Part shown: in pieces, positions 6,701 to 39,437 of the stretch
How positions within the stretch are numbered: the stretch's first letter is position 1
Layout of the letters: each line of letters opens with the position of its first letter
Assembly (NCBI GenBank): GCA_947652925.1
Contig: CANTEW010000018.1
Location: 1-47,547 of the forward strand
Origin: an uncultured Lachnospiraceae bacterium
Lineage (GTDB): Bacteria; Bacillota; Clostridia; Lachnospirales; Lachnospiraceae
Length of the DNA: 47,547 nucleotides
Reading direction: 5' to 3'
Notes under the pieces: model-generated
The model's input: only the letters and a program-made list of their open reading frames with translations
Told to the model about the DNA's origin: nothing
The model's database searches: none
Position numbers and translations under genes: made by a program

Positions 6701-7696
6701 ATGAAAAAGACCCTCGCCTGGAAACTTTTTTTCACATCCTGTCTGCTGCTCATAGCGCTAAAAGGCATGACCTCAAACTGCACCCCTGTCCATGCAGCCA
6801 AGCTCCCGGCATTGAAAGTCGAAGGCACACGATTGGTCAATACCAAAGGAAGACCCGTCCAGCTGAAAGGAGTCAGCACCCACGGCCTATCCTGGTTCCC
6901 CGGATATGTAGACCAGAAAGCTTTCAAGGATATCAAAAAGATCTGGAAAGCGGACGCTGTACGCCTTGCCCTCTACACCAGCGACTACAACGGCTACTGC
7001 TCCGGAGACGCCGCAAACAGGAGCGCATTAGAGCAGCGGATAGACAAAGGGGTACAATACGCTACAAAAGCGGGCTTGTACGTGATCATCGATTGGCACA
7101 TACTCAGCGATGGCAACCCAAGGACATATGAAAAACAGGCAGTCCGGTTTTTCAAAAAAATGGCCTCCAGATATAAAGACCACACCAACGTACTCTACGA
7201 GATATGCAACGAACCAAACGGCGGTACCTCCTGGAACACGATCAAAACATATGCAAAAAAAGTGATCCGCGCGATCCGCGCTCAAGACAAGAACGGGGTC
7301 ATCCTCATCGGGACACCCCAATGGTCACAGGATGTGGATATCGCGGCATCCTCACCCATCAAAGGCTACAAAAACCTCATGTACACCCTGCATTTTTACG
7401 CCGGGACCCACGGGGCATACCTGCGGGACAAAGCCAAGACCGCCCTCGATAAAAAACTGCCCCTATTCGTATCAGAATTTGGCATCTGCGATGCTTCCGG
7501 CACTGGATCTTTAAACAAAAAAGAAGGAGCACAATGGATGCGCTTCCTGAAAAAACACAAGATCAGCTACATAGGCTGGAATCTCTCAAATAAACAGGAA
7601 AGCTCCGCCCTCCTCAGACCATCCTGCCAAAAGACATCCGGCTGGAAAAAAGCGGACCTTTCCCCCTGGGGAAAATGGCTCCTGAAACGATCCTGA
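6701..7696 (+). CDS. Secreted glycoside hydrolase family 5 endoglucanase
   Basis: A 331-aa secreted beta-glucanase of the GH5 cellulase type. Residues ~1-33 form a signal peptide (KK, hydrophobic stretch, VHAA cleavage region). The (beta/alpha)8 barrel follows directly. The catalytic acid/base is E171 in CNEPNG, the nucleophile E259 in VSEFG, with H133 in IDWHI and H231/Y233 lining the site. There is no carbohydrate-binding, dockerin or sorting module, so it is a free minimal enzyme. An AAGGAG site precedes the ATG. It is a single-gene unit convergent with modC, with only 5 bp between their stop codons and no visible terminator. Confidence 0.93.
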   Translation: MKKTLAWKLFFTSCLLLIALKGMTSNCTPVHAAKLPALKVEGTRLVNTKGRPVQLKGVSTHGLSWFPGYVDQKAFKDIKKIWKADAVRLALYTSDYNGYCSGDAANRSALEQRIDKGVQYATKAGLYVIIDWHILSDGNPRTYEKQAVRFFKKMASRYKDHTNVLYEICNEPNGGTSWNTIKTYAKKVIRAIRAQDKNGVILIGTPQWSQDVDIAASSPIKGYKNLMYTLHFYAGTHGAYLRDKAKTALDKKLPLFVSEFGICDASGTGSLNKKEGAQWMRFLKKHKISYIGWNLSNKQESSALLRPSCQKTSGWKKADLSPWGKWLLKRS

Positions 7697-7701
7697 CCAC
7701 A

Positions 7702-8796
7702 TCAGATACTCCCTAATACCATGATATCCCTAGCATCCATATGGATCCACATCTCATCTTTGGTCTTTTCCCGGCAGCGGGACTCCTGCCAGGACTCCTT
7801 TGTCATCTCCACCCGGATACGTGTATCTTCCGTCTCCTCCGTCACCCCTTTTGGCTGGAGGATGACGACGATCGAAAAAACGTCTTCCACCACCCGCATG
7901 ACCTGGCAGCAGAAAGTATTCTCCTGTCCCGCAGCGCTGCCGGATGGCACGGGATGGATATAATGGCTGCGGACACCGATATGGCTGAAGCCTTCTGGAG
8001 CCTCTCCCGTATATCCCAGGACCACGCCCCAGTCTTCTGCATAGACCTTTTTTTCCCCTGCCGGACGGGCACGGGAAAAATTTTTGCAACCGGACAACAC
8101 AGCCGCCGCCTTAGACCGGGGCGCTTCAAAAAGCTGTTTGACCGGTATCACCGGACTTGACTTACCCTTCTCCATCACACAGACCCTGTCGCAGACACGA
8201 TATATCTCTTCCCTGCTGTGGGATACGAAAAGAGTACTGCCCTCGAATCCTTCCAACAGGCTGGCCAGCTCCAGCTCCAGCCTCCACTTCAGAAAATCAT
8301 CCAGTGCTGAAAAAGGTTCATCCAGCAACAAAACCCTGGGCTTTGACAAAAAGATACGCGCCAGCGCCACCCTCTGCTGCTGTCCGCCGGAGAGCTGACT
8401 GGGCTTATGTCCCGCAAGCCCGTCCAGGCAGAATCTCTCCATCACAGTATTTATAGCCGCCGCTGCCCGTTTCTTATCCTTTTCATATGGCTTCAACCCG
8501 GTCATCAGATTCTGCCACACAGTCATATTGGGGAAGAGCGCGTAATTCTGGAATAAAAGTCCCACATGCCGCTGCTGGGGCTTCAGATCGATCTTCTCCC
8601 TGTGATCAAAGAAAACCGTCCCGTCCAGCTCGATCCGTCCCTCGTCCGGCCTCAAGATCCCGGCGATACAGCGCAGCGTCATGCTCTTTCCGCATCCGGA
8701 AGCCCCCAGGATCCCGGTCACACCCCCGTCCGCCTCGAACTTCGTCTCCAGGACAAAATCCCCCAAGTCTTTCTTGATATCTACATACAGTGACAT
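7702..8796 (-). CDS. modC: Molybdate ABC transporter ATP-binding protein
   Basis: A 364-aa ATPase of the molybdate/tungstate importer. Walker A GASGCGKS (~31-38), the Q-loop (LFQNYALFPNMTV), the LSGGQQQR signature and LLLDEPFSALD Walker B are clear. The C-terminal ~120 residues form a TOBE/Mop-like regulatory extension of the ModC type (GVRSHYIHP, later VMRVVEDVFSIVVIL), diverged but of the expected length. Its ATG lies one base after the modB stop, so it is the last gene of modABC. Confidence 0.92.
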   Translation of the reverse strand: MSLYVDIKKDLGDFVLETKFEADGGVTGILGASGCGKSMTLRCIAGILRPDEGRIELDGTVFFDHREKIDLKPQQRHVGLLFQNYALFPNMTVWQNLMTGLKPYEKDKKRAAAAINTVMERFCLDGLAGHKPSQLSGGQQQRVALARIFLSKPRVLLLDEPFSALDDFLKWRLELELASLLEGFEGSTLFVSHSREEIYRVCDRVCVMEKGKSSPVIPVKQLFEAPRSKAAAVLSGCKNFSRARPAGEKKVYAEDWGVVLGYTGEAPEGFSHIGVRSHYIHPVPSGSAAGQENTFCCQVMRVVEDVFSIVVILQPKGVTEETEDTRIRVEMTKESWQESRCREKTKDEMWIHMDARDIMVLGSI

Positions 8797-8797
8797 A

Positions 8798-9469
8798 TCA
8801 GTCCCTCCGGGATCCTCTCTCCCGTTTTTCCAACAGGTTCACAATGAGCAGCACCACCGCCGAGATCACCACATTGACCACGACCCAGCGAAAAGCCAGG
8901 GCATCGTTATCTGTCCTCCACAACTGATAGACCGTCGTGGAGATCGTCGCCGTTTTTCCCGGCGTGTAGCCTGCGATCATGCTGGTCGCCCCGTACTCGC
9001 CCAGCGCCCTGGCAAAAGCCAGCACCCCTCCGGCCAGGATCCCCTGCCGGCAGGCCGGCATACGGATGCGCCAGAAGATATACGTATTGGACAGCCCCAG
9101 CGTCTGCCCGGAAAAAGCCAACGTCTCGTCAAAACTCTCAAAAGCCCCCCGGGCCGTCCGGTACATCAGCGGGAACGCCACCACAGCCGCCGCAAAGATA
9201 CCTGAATACCAGGTCATCACCAGCCGGGTCTGGAAAACGTCCATAAACCAGGAACCCAGGGGCCTGCGCGGCCCCAGCAGCACCAGCAGGAAATATCCCA
9301 CCACCGTGGGCGGCAGGACCAGGGGCAGCGTCAGCACCACATCCAGGACACCTTTTACAGCCGGATGGAGCTTTGCGATATGATATGCCGCAAAAATACC
9401 GCTGAAAAAAACCACCACGCTGGAGATCAGCGCGATCCGCAGCGAATTATAGAGAGGATACCAGTCCAT
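8798..9469 (-). CDS. modB: Molybdate ABC transporter permease
   Basis: A 223-aa inner-membrane permease with about five membrane helices. The cytoplasmic EAA loop that docks on ModC is visible as ARALGEYGATSMIAG near residues 155-170. Length and order (modA-modB-modC) are canonical for the molybdate/tungstate system. Confidence 0.94.
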   Translation of the reverse strand: MDWYPLYNSLRIALISSVVVFFSGIFAAYHIAKLHPAVKGVLDVVLTLPLVLPPTVVGYFLLVLLGPRRPLGSWFMDVFQTRLVMTWYSGIFAAAVVAFPLMYRTARGAFESFDETLAFSGQTLGLSNTYIFWRIRMPACRQGILAGGVLAFARALGEYGATSMIAGYTPGKTATISTTVYQLWRTDNDALAFRWVVVNVVISAVVLLIVNLLEKRERGSRRD

Positions 9470-9497
9470 GATAACGCCCTTTCCTACTGTATCTCAC

Positions 9498-10415
9498 CTA
9501 TTGGGCTTTGATAAAGCCCACTTCCTCGAATACTTTCATACACTCATCTGTCTGGAGATGATCCAAAAACGCCTGTGCTTCTTCCTGATGCTCTGAAGTC
9601 TTCAGCACCGCCGCCGGATAGATAGCCGGCTTACACAAGTCGCTCCCAGCTTCCGCGACCGAAGACAGACCTGCCGAATACGCATCCGTCGCATAGATGA
9701 TCCCCGCATCTGCCGACGCCTCTGAAACCTGCGTGGTCACCTCTTTTACATTCGAACCGTATGTGATCTTATTGTCCGCTTCCAGCCCTTCCAGAAGACC
9801 CAGCGTCGTGAGGATCTCCGTAGAATACTGGCCCACCGGAACGTCCTCATTGCCCAGAGCCAGCAACTTCAGCTTGTCCGTGCCAAGATCCTCGAAGGAA
9901 CTGATCCCCGCCGGATTTCCCTCCGGTACAGCCAGCACGACTTTATTTTCCAGCAGATCGACCCGGCTCTCCTTTAAAACAAAATCCAGTCCCTCTTCAT
10001 TGACTGCGGGGTCCGCCTCGATATCAAGCTGATCCATCTGCTTCTGCGCCGCTGAGATGAACAGATCGCACTCCGCCCCCTCCTGGATCTGGGTCTTCAG
10101 AGTACCTGATGAGTCAAAATTAAAGACCAGTTCCACATTAGGCGCTACCTCCGCGTACATCTCCTGGATCTTTTCAAGCGTCTCCGTCATAGATGCCGCC
10201 GCAAACACATTTAAAGTCACCGCCTCGTCCCCGGTCGTCTCTTCTTCTTCTCCAGCCGGAGTCTCTGTCTCCTCTTCCTCTGCTGCAGGCGTTGACGTCT
10301 CGGTCGTCTCAGTCGTCTCGGCCGGCTCTTCCGTCTTTTCAGTACTACTGCAGCCCGCCAGCAGCGATGCTGTCATCGCAGCGATCAATATACCTGTTAT
10401 CTTCTTCATCTTCAT
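9498..10415 (-). CDS. modA: Molybdate-binding lipoprotein
   Basis: A 305-aa periplasmic-type binding protein tethered to the membrane as a lipoprotein, since the LLAGC lipobox puts the acylated cysteine at C22. A Glu/Thr/Pro-rich acidic linker (~25-65) precedes the ModA fold. The oxyanion-binding serine motifs are in FAAASMTETL and FNFDSSGTLKTQI, followed by DLFISAAQKQMD. Binding of molybdate or tungstate cannot be distinguished from sequence. The gene is driven by a consensus promoter with a palindromic operator immediately downstream. Confidence 0.94.
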   Translation of the reverse strand: MKMKKITGILIAAMTASLLAGCSSTEKTEEPAETTETTETSTPAAEEEETETPAGEEEETTGDEAVTLNVFAAASMTETLEKIQEMYAEVAPNVELVFNFDSSGTLKTQIQEGAECDLFISAAQKQMDQLDIEADPAVNEEGLDFVLKESRVDLLENKVVLAVPEGNPAGISSFEDLGTDKLKLLALGNEDVPVGQYSTEILTTLGLLEGLEADNKITYGSNVKEVTTQVSEASADAGIIYATDAYSAGLSSVAEAGSDLCKPAIYPAAVLKTSEHQEEAQAFLDHLQTDECMKVFEEVGFIKAQ

Positions 10416-10447
10416 TTCTTTTGCACTCTCCTTTTGTACGCATATTC

Positions 10448-10469
10448 GTTATTTTTTGTAAAAAATAAC
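10448..10469. promoter_or_regulatory. Perfect 22-bp palindrome, ModE-type operator candidate
   Basis: Arms GTTATTTTTT (10448-10457) and its exact complement (10460-10469) flank a 2-bp centre. The site lies about +3 to +24 relative to the predicted modA transcription start, a classical repressor position. GTTAT...ATAAC ends resemble characterised ModE boxes. A ModE-type winged helix is encoded at 13870-14772. The protein-site link is inferred. Confidence 0.7.
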
Positions 10470-10478
10470 ACTGACCTC

Positions 10479-10507
10479 ATTATACATTTGATCAAATATA
10501 CTGTCAA
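10479..10507 (-). promoter_or_regulatory. modABC promoter
   Basis: On the minus strand TTGACA (10502-10507) and TATAAT (10479-10484) are separated by 17 bp, a full-consensus promoter, which implies that repression rather than activation controls it. Confidence 0.85.
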
Positions 10508-10653: not shown

Positions 10654-11091
10654 ATGGCACAGATCAGATGTGTCTGCATCAGCACAAAGAGAAAGACAAG
10701 TGCAGTAAATATCCACCAATGCCAGGCCGCCCTGGACGGTCTGGAAGGAGATATCCACAGAGGACACGGCCACCGGCATGTGAGCATACTACCGATGGAT
10801 GCTGTACAGAGTTATTTTACTGAAAAAAGAACGCCCATCCAATACGGCCGTTTCGGGGAAAACCTGGTCGTGGAAGGACTGGATCGGGAACATCTACAGG
10901 AAGGGGATCTCCTGCGCGCAGGGACTGTGCTGCTAAAGATCGTCCGCCTGGGGGCAGGCGGGCCCAAGTCCGATGCCTACAAAGGTGAAAAAGTATGCGC
11001 CCCCATGGAAAAGCATTTTATATTCTGCAAGATCCTTCAGGAGGGACTCCTCCAGGAAGGGATGGATATGGCAAAGGAGGAGAACAGATGA
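10654..11091 (+). CDS. Small MOSC-domain protein, divergent
   Basis: A 145-aa single-domain MOSC protein. The start at 10654 was chosen because a GAGGAGG site sits just upstream. The MOSC framework is recognisable: GLEGDIHRGHGHRHVS, YGRFGENLVVEGLD and a predicted sulfur-carrier region. Compared with the second MOSC copy in this window (IGKECHSHC...GDCIMPREG), the corresponding stretch here reads RLGAGGPK...GEKVCAPMEKH: the first Cys is gone while one Cys in KVC remains. MOSC proteins deliver or accept sulfur around molybdenum cofactor. The 4-bp ATGA overlap with the next gene shows tight coupling. Confidence 0.82.
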   Translation: MAQIRCVCISTKRKTSAVNIHQCQAALDGLEGDIHRGHGHRHVSILPMDAVQSYFTEKRTPIQYGRFGENLVVEGLDREHLQEGDLLRAGTVLLKIVRLGAGGPKSDAYKGEKVCAPMEKHFIFCKILQEGLLQEGMDMAKEENR

Positions 11092-12113
11092 AATGTATTG
11101 ATACGACAGATGCAGTGGGACATGTGCTGTGCCATGACATCACAAGGATCGTCAAAGATGTGGTCAAGGACACAGCTTTCAGGAAAGGGCACGTGGTGAC
11201 GGAAGAAGACATCCCCATGCTCCTCTCCCTGGGAAAAGACCACTTATATGTGTGGGAAAAGGACGAGGACACCCTCCATGAAGATGAAGCCGCCCAAATC
11301 CTATACGACATATGCAAAAATGAACACATGCACCCCACCCCGGTAAAAGAAGGCAAGATCGAACTGATCGCCGACTGCGACGGACTCTTCCGGGTGGACG
11401 TGGAACGGCTGGAAGCCATCAATGGACTGGACGAGATCATGATCGCCACCCGGCATACGAACACAGCTGTTAAAAAAGGCGACCGTCTCTTAGGCACCCG
11501 TGTCATCCCCCTGGTGATCCAAAAAGACAAGATGGAACAGGTGAAAAAAACAGCGGGCGACACACCTCTGGTATCCCTGACACCCTTCAGATCCTTCAGA
11601 GCAGGGATCGTGACCACCGGGAACGAAGTTTATCACGGACGGATCAAAGACACCTTCACTCCAGTCATCATCGACAAACTGGCCTCTTACGGCATAGGCG
11701 TCTCCGGGCACATGGTCTGTGACGACGACCAGGAAAAGATCACAAATGCCATCCTGACCCTGAAACAAGAAGGGGCCGACCTGATCCTCTGCACCGGCGG
11801 CATGAGCGTGGATCCGGACGACCGGACCCCCGGCGCGATCAAAGCTACAGGCGCGCGCATCGTCACCTATGGCGCCCCGGTACTCCCCGGCGCTATGCTC
11901 CTTCTGGGATATTTTGAAGACGGCACCCCGATCCTCGGACTCCCCGGCTGCGTGATGTATGCAAAAGCAACTGCCTTCGACCTGGTACTCCCCAGGATCG
12001 CTGCAGGCGTGGAACTGACCAAAAAAGATCTTGCCCGCATGGGCAACGGCGGATTCTGCCTGGGCTGCGGCACCTGCCATTACCCGGCGTGCGGATTCGG
12101 AAAAGGGGTGTAA
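11088..12113 (+). CDS. Molybdopterin-binding protein with Cys-rich C-terminal tail
   Basis: A 341-aa protein with a MoaB/MogA/MoeA-type molybdopterin-binding domain at ~165-300 (AGIVTTGNEVYHGRI, LILCTGGMSVDPDDRT, PILGLPGCVMY). The N-terminal ~160 residues resemble the extra domain of clostridial MoeA-like proteins that accompany molybdenum hydroxylase maturation. The last 18 residues, CLGCGTCHYPACGFGKGV, contain four cysteines (324, 327, 330, 335) and a histidine, a likely metal or Fe-S site absent from classical MoeA. The start at 11088 has a GGAGG site. It may handle molybdopterin or insert metal; the exact step is not known. Confidence 0.85.
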   Translation: MKCIDTTDAVGHVLCHDITRIVKDVVKDTAFRKGHVVTEEDIPMLLSLGKDHLYVWEKDEDTLHEDEAAQILYDICKNEHMHPTPVKEGKIELIADCDGLFRVDVERLEAINGLDEIMIATRHTNTAVKKGDRLLGTRVIPLVIQKDKMEQVKKTAGDTPLVSLTPFRSFRAGIVTTGNEVYHGRIKDTFTPVIIDKLASYGIGVSGHMVCDDDQEKITNAILTLKQEGADLILCTGGMSVDPDDRTPGAIKATGARIVTYGAPVLPGAMLLLGYFEDGTPILGLPGCVMYAKATAFDLVLPRIAAGVELTKKDLARMGNGGFCLGCGTCHYPACGFGKGV

Positions 12114-12123
12114 GGAGACTCAT

Positions 12124-13344
12124 ATGGAAAAAGCGATCAATGAACAAGTGACCATCGAACAGGCGACCGACCTGATCCTGGAACATACCAGGATCATCAC
12201 CGACACAGAAGAGATCCCCTTATTGCAGGCATCTGGACGTTTCCTGGCCAAGGATATGGCCGCCTCCTTTGACAACCCTCCCTTCGACCGCTCCCCCATC
12301 GACGGATACGCCTGCCGGGCCTCCGATGTGACCAGCGCTTCCAGAAACACCCCGGCCCGGCTCAAAGTCATCCGGGAGATCGACGCGGGACAATACTCTG
12401 CAGAGGAGATCAAGGAGGGGCAGGCCGTGCGCATCATGACAGGCGCCGCCATCCCCCCCGGATGCGACTGCTGCATCCGTCAGGAAGATACAGACTACGG
12501 AGAAGACGAGGTCTGTATCTTCCGTCCTGAAAAAGCCTGGGGCAATTACTGTTTCCGGGGCGAAGATTTTAAGACAGGGGATATACTGCTGCAAAAAGGC
12601 TCCCGTTTGAGCTTTGTGGAAGCCGGGATCTTAGCCGGGATGGGGCAGACGAGCGTCCCCGTCTACCGTCTGCCCCGGGCCGCCGTCTTCACCACAGGGG
12701 ATGAAGTAGTCCTTCCCGGACAGCCCCTGCCGCCTGGCAAGATCTACAACAGCAACCAGACGCTCTTGGCCTCCCGGCTCCTGGACTTCGGCGTGCAGCT
12801 CGTCCACGTCTCCTCCATACCGGATCAGCCCCCGGCTATGGCCGAGGCCCTGCACAAAGCTGCCGGAGACGTAGACGTGATCATCACCACCGGGGCCGTC
12901 TCCGTGGGGAAAAAAGACATCATGCACGAAGCGCTCTCCCTGGCCCAAGCTGAACGGGTCTTCTGGCGCGTACTGGTAAAACCAGGTATGCCCACACTCT
13001 TCTCCACATACAAAGGCATACCCATCCTGAGCCTGTCCGGCAATCCTTTCGGCGTAGCCGTCATCACGGAACTCCTGGCCCGCCCCCTGTTCCAGAAGAT
13101 GAAACAGGACGACACTTTAAGGCTCAAACATGTACAGGGCACCATGGCGGATCCATTCGGCAAAGCCAGCGGCGGACGCAGGTTCGTCCGGGCATTCTGG
13201 GACGGGAGCGACTTCCACCTGCCCAGCGGCCTCCATTCCAACGGGATCCTGGCCTCCATGGCCGGGTGCAACTGCCTGATCGACATACCCGCAGGCTCCC
13301 CGGCACTGCAGCCCGGAGACAGGGCAGAAGCCGTCTTATTATGA
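12124..13344 (+). CDS. moeA: Molybdopterin molybdenumtransferase
   Basis: A 406-aa MoeA family enzyme that inserts molybdate into adenylylated molybdopterin. The N-terminal signature ASFDNPPFDRSPIDGYA, the binding-domain motifs TTGDEVVLPG and TTGAVSVGKKD (usually TTGGVSVG), and the LSGNPFGVAV motif are present, with the C-terminal barrel domain after ~330. The start at 12124 follows an AAGGAGA site and lies 10 bp after the previous stop. It overlaps mobB by 4 bp. Together with the preceding paralogous binding protein, the operon contains two MoeA-like partners. Confidence 0.94.
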   Translation: MEKAINEQVTIEQATDLILEHTRIITDTEEIPLLQASGRFLAKDMAASFDNPPFDRSPIDGYACRASDVTSASRNTPARLKVIREIDAGQYSAEEIKEGQAVRIMTGAAIPPGCDCCIRQEDTDYGEDEVCIFRPEKAWGNYCFRGEDFKTGDILLQKGSRLSFVEAGILAGMGQTSVPVYRLPRAAVFTTGDEVVLPGQPLPPGKIYNSNQTLLASRLLDFGVQLVHVSSIPDQPPAMAEALHKAAGDVDVIITTGAVSVGKKDIMHEALSLAQAERVFWRVLVKPGMPTLFSTYKGIPILSLSGNPFGVAVITELLARPLFQKMKQDDTLRLKHVQGTMADPFGKASGGRRFVRAFWDGSDFHLPSGLHSNGILASMAGCNCLIDIPAGSPALQPGDRAEAVLL

Positions 13345-13850
13345 AAACAGATACGAAGATCTTCGCCATCAGCGGAGTCAAAAACTCCGGCAAGACCACC
13401 CTGATCACCCGTCTCCTCCCGCTCCTGGCCGGACAGGGGCTGAAGATCGCCACCATCAAACACGACGGGCATGATTTCAATGCTGATGTACCCGGGACCG
13501 ATACCTACCGCCATTTTCAGGCGGGCGCCTACGGCACGGCTATCTTCTCTGACTCAAAATATATGGTGGTCAAACAACAGCCTCATTTAACGGAAGAACA
13601 GCTCATGGGATCTTTCCCGGAAGCTGACCTGATCTTGCTGGAAGGCTTCAAAACCTGCCCATACCAGAAGATCGAACTGATCCGCAAAGGCAATTCTGTA
13701 AAAAGCGTATGCGAAGGATATAACCTGGCCGCCATCGCCACCGACCTCCCGCCTGGAGAAGTGGAGCGCACCGACCCGGCCATCCCCCTTCTGGACCTGA
13801 ACGATCCACACATGATCGTGTCCTATATCCTGGAATGTGTCGAGATCTGA
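13341..13850 (+). CDS. mobB: Molybdopterin-guanine dinucleotide biosynthesis adapter MobB
   Basis: A 169-aa P-loop GTP-binding protein with Walker A GVKNSGKTT at 12-20, then KIATIKHDGHDFNADVPGTDTYR and LILLEGFK, all MobB hallmarks. In known systems it assists MobA in forming the dinucleotide form of the cofactor. No intact MobA is encoded here; the next gene carries a MobA-like domain that appears catalytically degenerate. ATG overlaps the moeA stop (ATGA). Confidence 0.93.
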   Translation: MKTDTKIFAISGVKNSGKTTLITRLLPLLAGQGLKIATIKHDGHDFNADVPGTDTYRHFQAGAYGTAIFSDSKYMVVKQQPHLTEEQLMGSFPEADLILLEGFKTCPYQKIELIRKGNSVKSVCEGYNLAAIATDLPPGEVERTDPAIPLLDLNDPHMIVSYILECVEI

Positions 13851-13869: not shown

Positions 13870-14772
13870 ATGAAAACAGGTGCTTTGATCCTGGCCTCTT
13901 TACCGCCTGAGGAAAAAGACCGGGGAAACGAAGAGATATCCCTCTTCCTGCCCATGTATCCGCTGGACGGCACCACCGCGATCAAACGGGAGATCGCCGC
14001 CCTGCGGAAAGCTTCCCTCTCCCCCATCGTCGTCCTGACAGGCTACCAAAAAGAGATCCTGAAAAACCACTTGAGCCATAACAACGTGATCCTGGCGGAC
14101 CACGATACATACCGTGAAAACAACAGTGGAGAAACCCTGCAGATCGGCCTGGACGCCGCCCGCCAACAGATGGAGCGGGCAGTGGTCGTCCCGGTGGGCT
14201 CTCCCGCTTTCTCCCCACAGACATTGGAACAGCTCCTGGAATGCAAGAAGAGCGCCGCCCCCCTCTGCAATGGCCAGATGGGCTGGCCCAGGACCTATGT
14301 ATTCCAGGAAGATGGAACATCCGCAGACCTGGAGACGATCCCGGTAGATGATAACGGCATCCTGCTCTCCCTCTCAGACCCTGGGGGAGCTGAAAGGATC
14401 CAACAGTATTTCAGAGCACAGCGCAGCACCAACGAACTGCGCTGCAAGACCAAAGTGGTCCTCACGAAAGAAGAAGACTTCTTCGGACCAGGCATCTGCC
14501 GCCTTCTGGATTATATCGACGAGACCGGCTCCATCCAGGCAGCCGCCGCCAAGATGCATATGTCCTATTCCAAAAGCTGGAAGATGGTGAACAAAGTAGA
14601 AAAAGAAATGGGCTTCCCCTTTCTGGACCGCTGTAACGGCGGAAAAAAGGGCGGGAGTTCCACACTCACTGAAGAAGGCAGGCTGTTCATAGAACGCTAT
14701 CAGGCCATGACCCGGGATATGCGGCGCATCAGCCAAAACTTTTTTGACGTTTATTTCAAAGATTTCCAATAA
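13870..14772 (+). CDS. Fusion: degenerate MobA-like nucleotidyltransferase + ModE-type winged helix
   Basis: A 300-aa two-domain protein. Residues 1-~190 keep the order of a MobA/MocA Rossmann fold (GALILAS, IVVLTGY, VVVPVGSP) but lack the LAAGxSxRMGxxK nucleotide loop, and VGSP replaces the metal-binding CDMP motif. Residues ~205-285 match the ModE DNA-binding domain closely (GSIQAAAAKMHMSYSKSWKMV, then GG-KKGGSS-LTEEG). The C-terminal molybdate-binding MOP domain of classical ModE is absent. The inferred role is a regulator of the mod/moe genes, using the palindrome in the modA leader, with the dead transferase domain as sensor. The family may alternatively retain weak transferase activity. 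Confidence 0.85.
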   Translation: MKTGALILASLPPEEKDRGNEEISLFLPMYPLDGTTAIKREIAALRKASLSPIVVLTGYQKEILKNHLSHNNVILADHDTYRENNSGETLQIGLDAARQQMERAVVVPVGSPAFSPQTLEQLLECKKSAAPLCNGQMGWPRTYVFQEDGTSADLETIPVDDNGILLSLSDPGGAERIQQYFRAQRSTNELRCKTKVVLTKEEDFFGPGICRLLDYIDETGSIQAAAAKMHMSYSKSWKMVNKVEKEMGFPFLDRCNGGKKGGSSTLTEEGRLFIERYQAMTRDMRRISQNFFDVYFKDFQ

Positions 14773-14913: not shown

Positions 14914-15477
14914 TTATATACTATAGACGACCATTCCCAGGACAGCTGAGATCAAAATGAGCCATATAGGAGATACATCCTTCTTTGCCCCTTTCTCCAC
15001 CGCTAAGACCACCGCCAGCAGAAAAACCGTTATAAGAGTTCCTTGTCCATCAGATCTAAACGCCGGGAGGAACGTTGCTATATTGCTGACGATCATATAG
15101 ATGCCCGTCGCAAGGATCATCCCTACGATACAGGGCTTCACTCCATCTAGCGCTGCCTGGACAGCCTTATACCGCAACAGCTTTCTAAAAGCCGCCATGA
15201 CCAGCAGGATGATCGCGAACGCAGGGAAGATAACGGCCAATGTGGCTATGGCAGCTCCTATAAACCCTGCCTGGCTGCTGCCGATATAGGTGGCGAGGTT
15301 GACCATGATCGGTCCCGGCGTACTCTCACTGACAGCGATAAAATAGACCAATGTCTCTTCATCCAGCCATCCATAAGACATCACCACATCCCTGATGAGG
15401 GGGATCGCTCCATAGGCCCCGCCAAAAGAAAAACATCCCACCCGGAGGAACCCCAGGAACAGATCCAGCAAGATCAT
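14914..15477 (-). CDS. Chromate-type (CHR) transporter subunit, C-terminal partner
   Basis: A 187-aa integral membrane protein carrying one CHR domain (FLRVGCFSFGGAYGAIPLI, then ESTPGPIMVNLATYIG). Short single-domain CHR proteins occur in pairs that together equal one long ChrA. The gene overlaps its partner by 4 bp. Known CHR proteins move chromate or related oxyanions, but here the operon begins with a MOSC-MogA gene, so a molybdate/tungstate or sulfur-oxyanion substrate is possible. Confidence 0.85.
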   Translation of the reverse strand: MILLDLFLGFLRVGCFSFGGAYGAIPLIRDVVMSYGWLDEETLVYFIAVSESTPGPIMVNLATYIGSSQAGFIGAAIATLAVIFPAFAIILLVMAAFRKLLRYKAVQAALDGVKPCIVGMILATGIYMIVSNIATFLPAFRSDGQGTLITVFLLAVVLAVEKGAKKDVSPIWLILISAVLGMVVYSI

Positions 15478-16100
15478 TTCGCCGCACCTCCCTTCCGTGA
15501 CACAAGCCCCTTTATCCCAAAAGCAACAAGCCCCGCCACAGCCGCTGCCAGCAGCAGGCTGATGGACGAAAGATCCCAGGCAAAAATATCGATCAGCAGC
15601 ATGGCCCCGCAGGAAGCGACCATGATACCACGTGACAACAGACCCTTTTCCATCTTCCTGATCATCTTGAGCGCCGCCCTGAAGATCAGAAGACCCACGC
15701 CTATCTTGATGCCTTTGAACGCATACGCCACCAGCGGGATATCCAAAAAACTGTCAAAATAAGCCGCGATCAGCAGGATGATGCTAAAAGATGGGACAAC
15801 GATCCCCAGCGTCGCTGTCACCGCCCCCAGGAGCCCCGCCTGCCTGAACCCCACAAACGTGGCACAGTTGATCGCTATAGGCCCCGGCGTGGCTTCCGCC
15901 ACGACCACCACATCCATCATCTCCTCATGGGTGATCCAGCCCTTCTTCGCCACACATGCGTCCTCGATCAAAGAGATCATGGCATAACCGCCGCCGAATG
16001 TGAACAGCCCTATCTTAAAGAATGTGAAAAACAGATCGATCAAGATCCCCACTTTGCTCTCCTGTATCCCTAAAATAAACGCCTCTAACGACTCCCGCAT
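15474..16100 (-). CDS. Chromate-type (CHR) transporter subunit, N-terminal partner
   Basis: A 208-aa membrane protein with the second CHR domain (FFKIGLFTFGGGYAMISLI; EATPGPIAINCATFVGF). It overlaps the upstream MOSC-MogA gene by 16 bp and the downstream CHR gene by 4 bp, so the three are translated as a unit. The two CHR proteins are dissimilar enough to be a heterodimer with opposite topology, as known for short-chain pairs. Substrate unresolved. Confidence 0.85.
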   Translation of the reverse strand: MRESLEAFILGIQESKVGILIDLFFTFFKIGLFTFGGGYAMISLIEDACVAKKGWITHEEMMDVVVVAEATPGPIAINCATFVGFRQAGLLGAVTATLGIVVPSFSIILLIAAYFDSFLDIPLVAYAFKGIKIGVGLLIFRAALKMIRKMEKGLLSRGIMVASCGAMLLIDIFAWDLSSISLLLAAAVAGLVAFGIKGLVSRKGGAAK

Positions 16101-17020
16101 TCCCCCGCTGTCCCTCTGAGGATACCCAGGCCATGTTCCAACTGGGGCAGTACATACTCCAGACTTTCTCTGACCGCTTTCGGGCTCCCCGGGAGATTGA
16201 TGATCAATGTTTTTTTGCGGATGCCGGAGACAGCGCGGCTGAGCATAGCTCGTCCTGTTATCGTCAGAGAGTATTGACGGATCGCATCCGCGATGCCATT
16301 GGCCATGCGGTCGCAGACCCCGATCGTCGCCTCCGGCGTCAGATCGCGCTCAGAAAATCCCGTCCCGCCCGTTGTAAAGATCACATTCACCTGCCGCTGA
16401 TCTGCCAGTCGGCAGAGCTGTGTGGATAAAGGCTCTTTTCCATCCGGAAGGAGCAGCGTCTCCACTACACGGTAACCCTCTTTTTCCAACATCTCCTGGA
16501 TGACGGGCCCGCTCTTGTCTTCCCGCTCTCCCTTCGCGCCTTTATCGCTCAATGTGACCACCGCCGCCGTGAATGGACGGTCGTCCGGGAGCGGTAACAT
16601 CTCGATGGTATCCCCCGTCTTGATCTTGCCCCCTTTGATCACCTGGGTGAACACCCCTTCCCTGGGCATGATGCAGTCGCCCACCGCGTGGAAGATCGCA
16701 CAGTGACTGTGACATTCCTTACCGATCTGCGTGAGTTCCAATATCGCTTCTCCGATCTGGAACCTGGTCCCCACCGGCACCTGCCGCAGATCGAACCCCT
16801 CCACCACAAGGTTCTCACCAAAATCCCCAAAATCAACCTCCGCTCCTTTCGCGCGGAATCCTTCTATCTTTTCAAAAGACAGAAGGCTCACCTGGCGGTG
16901 CCACTTGCCTCCATGGGCATCCTTCTCGATCCCCCAATCCTCGATCAGCGTCGCCTCGTCCACAGGTTCCTTCTGCACACCTTTTTTCTCACTGATGCAT
17001 ATCGCCAATATCTTTCCCAT
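16085..17020 (-). CDS. MOSC-MogA fusion protein
   Basis: A 311-aa fusion. Residues 1-~145 are a complete MOSC domain with the conserved IGKECHSHC and GDCIMPREGVF motifs. Residues ~150-311 are a MogA/MoaB molybdopterin adenylyltransferase domain (VTLSDKGAKGEREDKSG, FTTGGTGFSERDLTPEAT, LPGSPKAVRE). MogA adenylylates molybdopterin before MoeA adds molybdenum, and so complements the moeA gene on the opposite strand. The start at 17020 follows a TAGGAGGA site. It is the first gene of the operon with the two CHR transporters and is preceded by a structured leader. Confidence 0.93.
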   Translation of the reverse strand: MGKILAICISEKKGVQKEPVDEATLIEDWGIEKDAHGGKWHRQVSLLSFEKIEGFRAKGAEVDFGDFGENLVVEGFDLRQVPVGTRFQIGEAILELTQIGKECHSHCAIFHAVGDCIMPREGVFTQVIKGGKIKTGDTIEMLPLPDDRPFTAAVVTLSDKGAKGEREDKSGPVIQEMLEKEGYRVVETLLLPDGKEPLSTQLCRLADQRQVNVIFTTGGTGFSERDLTPEATIGVCDRMANGIADAIRQYSLTITGRAMLSRAVSGIRKKTLIINLPGSPKAVRESLEYVLPQLEHGLGILRGTAGECGSR

Positions 17021-39162: not shown

Positions 39163-39233
39163 GCAGATATAGTTCATCGGTAGAATGCCAGCTTCCCAAG
39201 CTGGAGAGGGGGGTTCGATTCCCCTTATCTGCT
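39163..39233 (+). tRNA. tRNA-Gly (anticodon CCC)
   Basis: A full cloverleaf: 7-bp acceptor stem GCAGATA/TATCTGC, anticodon stem CCAGC/GCTGG with loop TTCCCAA (anticodon CCC, reading GGG) and a T arm with GGTTCGATTCC. Discriminator T. The 3' CCA is not encoded. A short T run follows. Confidence 0.95.
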
Positions 39234-39256
39234 TTTTGTCATAATCTTAAGATAAG

Positions 39257-39363
39257 ATCTTCAGGGCAGGGTGCAATTCCCTACCGGTGGTATAGCCCAC
39301 GAACCGCAAGGTATGATCCGGTGCGATCCCGGAGCCGACAGTATAGTCTGGATGAGAGAAGAT
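39257..39363 (+). promoter_or_regulatory. FMN riboswitch (RFN element)
   Basis: The FMN aptamer is complete: P1 closes ATCTTC (39257-39262) with GAAGAT (39358-39363). Conserved segments AGGGCAGGGTG, CCGGTGGTATAGCCCACGA, CCGGTGCGATCCCGGAGCCGAC and GTCTGGATGAGAGAAG are in order. It controls the ribDEBAH operon through the downstream terminator. It starts 24 nt after the tRNA, so readthrough from the tRNA promoter may supply transcription. Confidence 0.96.
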
Positions 39364-39437
39364 ATTGATATATGATATTTGCTCTGGGATATTTTTATAT
39401 CCTGGATTTTTTTCGTAAAGTCATATGATCATTTTAC

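Follow-up and report, generated by a model that had tools for sequence, protein, structure and literature searches.

The DNA analysed here (the window) is a stretch of 47,547 nucleotides from an uncultured Lachnospiraceae bacterium. It carries a cluster of molybdenum genes, at the end of which lies a gene whose product combines two domains. The features are as follows:

7702..8796, minus strand: modC-like ATPase (TIGR02142 match below the cut-off; Pfam)
8798..9469, minus strand: modB, permease (named by position and by eye)
9498..10415, minus strand: modA, molybdate-binding protein (TIGR01256, 143 bits, over the cut-off)
10448..10469, no strand assigned: candidate ModE-box operator GTTATTTTTTGTAAAAAATAAC, a GTTAT-N12-ATAAC palindrome
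10479..10507, minus strand: predicted modA promoter TTGACA-N17-TATAAT (12 of 12 consensus positions), with the operator at about +4 to +25
10654..11091, plus strand: MOSC-domain-like protein (NF011069 match below the cut-off)
11088..12113, plus strand: MoeA/MogA-like protein with a Cys-rich C-terminus (TIGR00177 match below the cut-off)
12124..13344, plus strand: MoeA (TIGR00177 over the cut-off; MoeA model NF007960, 283 bits, below the cut-off)
13341..13850, plus strand: MobB (TIGR00176, 132 bits, over the cut-off)
13870..14772, plus strand: fusion regulator gene (300 amino acids)
13870..14436, plus strand: N-terminal domain, predicted MocA-like pseudo-nucleotidyltransferase (residues 1-189)
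13894..13953, plus strand: degenerate nucleotide loop (residues 9-28, in place of AAGxSxRMxxxKP in the alignment)
14194..14205, plus strand: VGSP (residues 109-112, at the position of VDxP)
14476..14754, plus strand: ModE-type winged helix with long C-terminal helix (residues 203-295)

The Cys-rich C-terminus of the MoeA/MogA-like protein reads CLGCGTCHYPACGFGKG, and relatives of this protein lie near many of the fusions described below.

The predicted structure of the fusion protein (pLDDT 90.5) consists of two domains. In a Foldseek search the N-terminal domain matched nucleotidyltransferases of the MocA/IspD/GlmU type, and the helix matched ModE (1b9m, 24% identity over 107 columns); the query was the whole model, so that the absence of a family from its matches is not informative. 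These results agree with the first-pass annotation, which had proposed a MobA/MocA-like N-terminus and a ModE-type helix at the C-terminus, and they speak against an N-terminal fold unrelated to nucleotidyltransferases. The helix (residues 203-295) matches the ModE model TIGR00637 with 65.4 bits (E 3.8e-18), which is below the curated cut-off of 98.5. Delimited more narrowly, the winged helix occupies residues 206-291. No other protein of the genome matches this model below E 0.01, the next one having E 0.011 and 17 bits. A molybdate-binding MOP/TOBE domain was found neither in the window's fusion nor among the families listed for 38 members, as had been claimed from the letters alone. The possibility that the two parts are not really fused was rejected, because a full-length copy, 70% identical, occurs in a same-genus genome, and further relatives exist. 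Judged from the model, the architecture is a nucleotidyltransferase-fold domain followed by a ModE-type winged helix.

Over residues 1-188 the N-terminal domain has the fold of the MocA/YgfJ cytidylyltransferases (TIGR03310, COG2068; structures 2we9 and 3d5n), which it also resembles at the profile level. It differs from them in its junction to a DNA-binding domain, in its score (25 bits against a cut-off of 186) and in the loss of the catalytic R, K, D and of DxDTPE. Its best NCBIfam match is the DVU_1551 family NTP transferase (NF045665), with 46.9 bits against a cut-off of 315 and covering only positions 17-135 of the 359-position model. In the alignment, E and L stand where the AAGxSxRMxxxK loop has its Arg and Lys, and G and S where VDxP and DxDTPE, respectively, have their Asp. 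Model confidence is lowest at residues 11-30, which overlap the degenerate loop. All four residues are absent from every one of the seven rows of the window's clade (the window, L032, L033, L034, L035, L036 and L049; branch starred 100/99), which bears out the earlier claim that the loop is lost and that VGSP replaces CDMP. The Asp corresponding to D161 of the window is kept in 43 of 44 fusions. Of the 37 fusions that do not belong to the clade, 31 have the GHP motif. None of the seven clade members has it, the position reading GWP, GYP or GKL there; thus the old substrate site was presumably altered too.

The 44 fusions comprise the window, 37 full-length relatives (together the 38 rows of alignment A1) and six from a phylum sample of 398 genomes; L090 (at a contig end), L077 (in two frames) and L084 (helix only) were left out. 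To be called intact, a fusion had to have both loop residues (Arg and Lys) and the VDxP Asp, together with Asp or Asn in the C-terminal motif. By this measure, and in one alignment, eight of the 44 are intact (L051, L052, L054, L071, L079, L088, L089 and L091) and 36 are degenerate. R, K and D are kept in all 21 stand-alone nucleotidyltransferase relatives compared, of which 15 came from a phylum set of 21 (L095, L099, L109, L110, L111 and L113 being left out) and six were added (L036, L060, L062, L069, L070 and L076), cut to the first 235 residues.

The presence of intact copies bears on two readings. The suggestion that the protein is an ordinary active MobA fused to a regulator applies to the eight intact fusions but not to the window's seven-member clade and 29 others, and was rejected as a sufficient account since 36 of the 44, including the whole clade, are degenerate. 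It is also conceivable that the fusions are trigger enzymes, that is, bifunctional MocA-like enzymes and regulators, and that the window's copy is weakly active. Enzymes that also regulate are known, BirA and NadR among them, and this reading gains from the intact fusions, which include three from outside the family (L088, L089 and L091), as well as from L092 and L093, where an unfused nucleotidyltransferase lies beside a separate ModE-type helix. It is nevertheless quite improbable for the window's protein, given that all seven rows of the clade have lost the four catalytic residues (R, K and both D). Moreover, the same genome encodes a MobA-like protein (L070, 8218-8814) and a MocA-like protein (L069, 8113-8766), both with intact loops and with the MobA and MocA families, respectively, as best NCBIfam match below the curated cut-off, so that the fusion is not needed as an enzyme.

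To judge the constraint on the two parts, dN/dS was computed between related sequences; because dS is high the values are rough. They were 0.10-0.21 for the N-terminal domain (computable in five of seven pairs) and 0.02-0.06 for the helix (six of seven pairs). The N-terminal domain thus changes faster than the helix, and its reading frame stays open in seven related sequences. The faster change could mean that the domain is decaying baggage, the helix regulating constitutively or through a separate molybdate-binding protein. Such a reading would also fit the stand-alone helix proteins of about 110-140 amino acids found in the family and the repeat-bearing insert of L035. It is improbable, however, as the domain is open and constrained in the seven sequences and is predicted to fold well, and the only TOBE match in the genome is in an ABC ATPase that looks by eye to be of the sugar type. 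The window's own modC-like ATPase (7702..8796) yielded no TOBE domain. The N-terminal domain of the window's protein is, from its sequence, most likely a pseudo-enzyme, folded and conserved, that serves as a sensor. The insert in the L035 fusion (8001-9092) consists of repeated units of the VTLPGGFVSGREPK type and follows the position of GHP; this tandem expansion lies in the decayed part of the protein.

Of 299 same-family genomes, 66 gave a match at E 1e-10, in many cases covering only the helix. As mentioned above, L092 and L093 carry the same two parts as adjoining separate genes, which suggests that the fusion originated from such neighbours. On the tree the catalytic label requires at least three changes and the fusion label five, three of which are forced by starred branches. 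The label changes alone give no direction; the intact state was taken as ancestral because the stand-alone rows are intact. The three intact fusions from outside the family fall within a starred group made up mostly of stand-alone enzymes, and from this placement fusion may have occurred more than once, with several forks open and the L091 branch being long. Genes for mod or molybdenum cofactor (Moco) functions lie in the stretch around 22 of the 38 A1 fusions, and genes for xanthine dehydrogenase (XDH), XdhC or MocA around 11 more; XDH, XdhC and other neighbours were first recognised by eye, XDH and XdhC being then supported by further results. No molybdenum gene was in view for the remaining five (L049, L055, L058, L059 and L064), of which two, L058 and L064, lie at the end of a contig. 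A degenerate fusion directly precedes an intact MocA-like gene and genes of the xanthine dehydrogenase type in L060 and L062. Single genomes can hold several matches to the fusion or the helix (six in G024, five in G271), a hint of paralogues for different molybdenum enzymes. Two neighbours of another kind were also seen: a histidine phosphatase-HD protein (Pfam; L054, 8818-9861) beside an intact fusion, and a nucleotidyltransferase joined to a phosphatase-like part (by eye; L036, 2365-3618).

The palindrome at 10448..10469 has the core of the E. coli ModE box, which occurs exactly once in the 4,501-base modF-modC stretch of E. coli K-12, upstream of modA. Over 42 loci (666,555 bases) 11 exact boxes were found; ten were near modA or MoeA-like starts according to the rule of the script, and the 11th (L032) was upstream of a formate dehydrogenase (fdh) gene. 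The same loci yielded 16 matches to six control palindromes, none of them near modA or MoeA-like starts. An exact box is present in 9 of 22 modA regions, six of the nine being from the window's clade and hence not independent; among random segments the count was 3 of 3232, and among shuffles 0 of 1100. Not every modA region has the box, as 12 of the 22 differ from it by two or more mismatches. Two of 19 MoeA-like regions contain it. An exact box is lacking from all 37 regions that precede a fusion or helix gene (a count taking in neither the window's fusion gene nor L056), and the whole window has none other than that at 10448, so that there is no sign of autoregulation through the box.

When a stricter form of the box, here called the strict pattern, was searched in all 299 genomes, 16 sites were found in 14 genomes, as compared with 10 for the reversed control. 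As this is only modestly more, most such sites are likely to be chance occurrences; the pattern alone is weak, and it is position that carries the argument. By our own reading of the surroundings, 6 of 15 sites (G175 C73 being left out) are at molybdenum-related genes and 9 are not. The six lie in genomes that have the fusion or a ModE-type helix (G000, G195, G117 and G205). The genome of the window has the strict pattern at two sites only, one at modA and one (L139, 6014-6035) before an fdh gene (TIGR01591, 837 bits, over the cut-off), and the reversed control nowhere. The same-genus genome G195 likewise has two sites, one at modA and one between fdh and moaA.

The location of the boxes relative to predicted promoters, with transcription starts estimated from the hexamers, differs between the two kinds of target. 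In the window, L032, L033, L140, L035 and L036 the modA box starts at +3 to +5 of a promoter matching 11 or 12 of 12 consensus positions. In L077 it starts at +1 of a promoter with 10 of 12, and in L050 it occupies -66 to -45. Both in L032 and in the genome of the window, the fdh box is at about -85 to -64 of the best-scoring predicted promoter; weaker candidate promoters further off were also predicted and would change this geometry. In L140 the promoter scan gave no fdh promoter next to the box; on direct counting, the sequence shows a TTGATT whose spacing is the same to within one base. Relative to the best predicted promoter of the divergently oriented moaA (12 of 12), the box is at -76 to -55; two further, weaker promoters would overlap it. 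A site on the start suggests repression and a site upstream suggests activation, and this double logic, inferred from box geometry, matches the annotation of E. coli ModE as a 'dual regulator'.

It might be argued that the palindromes have no connection with the fusion and represent AT-rich hairpins or chance occurrences, as their arms are rich in A and T, the genome-wide excess over the reversed control is small and 9 of 15 surroundings have no molybdenum gene. This is very improbable in view of the nearly constant distance from strong modA promoters in the six window-clade loci tested, the same core before E. coli modA, and the frequency of exact boxes in modA regions against random segments.

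Taking these observations together, we propose, with a probability of roughly 0.7 and on sequence evidence, that the fusion is a ModE-type dual regulator in which the molybdate sensor has been replaced by a pseudo-nucleotidyltransferase, the signal being most probably a molybdopterin-type cofactor or precursor. The winged helix would take the place of ModE in binding GTTAT-N12-ATAAC palindromes. At modABC, bound just downstream of the predicted transcription start, it would repress uptake, and at the formate dehydrogenase operon, bound upstream of the predicted promoter, it would activate. The signal would reach the protein through the pseudo-nucleotidyltransferase in place of the molybdate site, so that with ample signal uptake would be off and the cofactor-using enzyme would be made. 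The binding of these operators by the fusion, the sign of control and the ligand are what we infer here. A molybdopterin-type signal is thought the likeliest because the enzyme family of the N-terminal domain binds it, because the neighbouring genes make the cofactor, and because the regulon would stop metal supply and start a cofactor user. The idea of a transferase fold converted into a sensor is partly upheld, namely as regards the fold, the catalytic loss under constraint and the ModE-type operators at mod and fdh. CTP or GTP as the signal is disfavoured in the window's branch, as the nucleotide-loop residues are precisely those lost. The full version of the proposal, in which a protein sensor of the finished molybdopterin-type cofactor or its precursor turns mod off and fdh on, and in which catalysis was lost after fusion more than once in the family, is tentative, and we consider its chances to be somewhat short of even.

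The main rival to cofactor sensing is docking: the MobA/MocA-like surface could bind MobB, MoeA or another Moco protein, whose occupancy would control DNA binding. In four clade loci mobB is directly upstream of the fusion gene (with a 19-base gap in the window, a 4-base overlap in L032 and L033, and abutting in L035), both the nucleotide loop and GHP are changed in the clade, and the N-terminal domain is less constrained than the helix, all of which would suit a docking surface. On the other hand, when the fetched relatives were searched with the window's MobB, a MobB next to the fusion turned up in L032, L033 and L035 only. L034 has a MoeA-like gene directly upstream of the fusion, L036 has no MobB, and none was recognised by eye in the mod cluster of G195. 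We regard docking as rather unlikely and cofactor sensing as the preferred reading.

ModE-type regulation is already known; what would be new is the swapped, ex-enzyme sensor. Like E. coli ModE (TIGR00637, COG2005), the fusion has a predicted winged helix with the long helix, GTTAT-N12-ATAAC before modA, a predicted dual action and modABC nearby. It differs in that no MOP domain was found, in that the sensor is N-terminal and the helix C-terminal, in the nucleotidyltransferase fold of the putative sensor and in its score below the TIGR00637 cut-off. BirA, NadR and the ROK repressors also combine an enzyme or ex-enzyme fold with a helix-turn-helix, but belong to unrelated enzyme families and have other ligands. 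In Enterococcus faecalis, according to PMC2432076, ModE and a MobA-related protein are encoded by separate genes near selD. Known molybdenum control reads either molybdate, through ModE, or Moco, through an RNA; the latter, as described in PMC2408646, is the Moco riboswitch, which likewise reads Moco status at mod, moa and molybdenum-enzyme genes but, unlike the fusion, is RNA. No Moco riboswitch was found at the gathering score in the window, L032, L036, L139 or L140. No report of a MobA/MocA-ModE fusion was found among the literature matches listed, which were open-access only and make this a weak absence.

If the proposal is true, a dead cofactor-making enzyme in place of the molybdate sensor would be a third way of molybdenum control, and the intact and dead versions within one family would form a series for studying the conversion of an enzyme into a regulator. 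Such a regulator appears to govern both molybdenum uptake and a molybdenum enzyme in a gut-type bacterium, and the signal that it reads may be the finished cofactor rather than the metal. The candidate regulon in Lachnospiraceae-like bacteria consists of mod and fdh, with moaA added in the same-genus genome.

Further molybdenum-related genes were noticed in the window's genome. A second protein of the formate dehydrogenase type (L142, about 7589-10432; G000 C26) has a Moco domain read through TGA, and it adjoins selA- and selB-like genes (by eye) and is therefore likely to be a selenocysteine enzyme; no exact ModE box is present in 16 kb at this locus. A cofactor domain of the xanthine dehydrogenase type (L141, 8681-9922; G000 C1) lies in a short frame of 413 amino acids with no partner recognised nearby, and may be a remnant. 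In the window itself, just after the fusion gene (14914-17020, minus strand), a MOSC-MogA-like fusion protein adjoins a pair resembling chromate-transporter halves (by eye), and further on a tRNA (39163-39233) and an FMN riboswitch (39253-39367) precede riboflavin-like genes (by eye).
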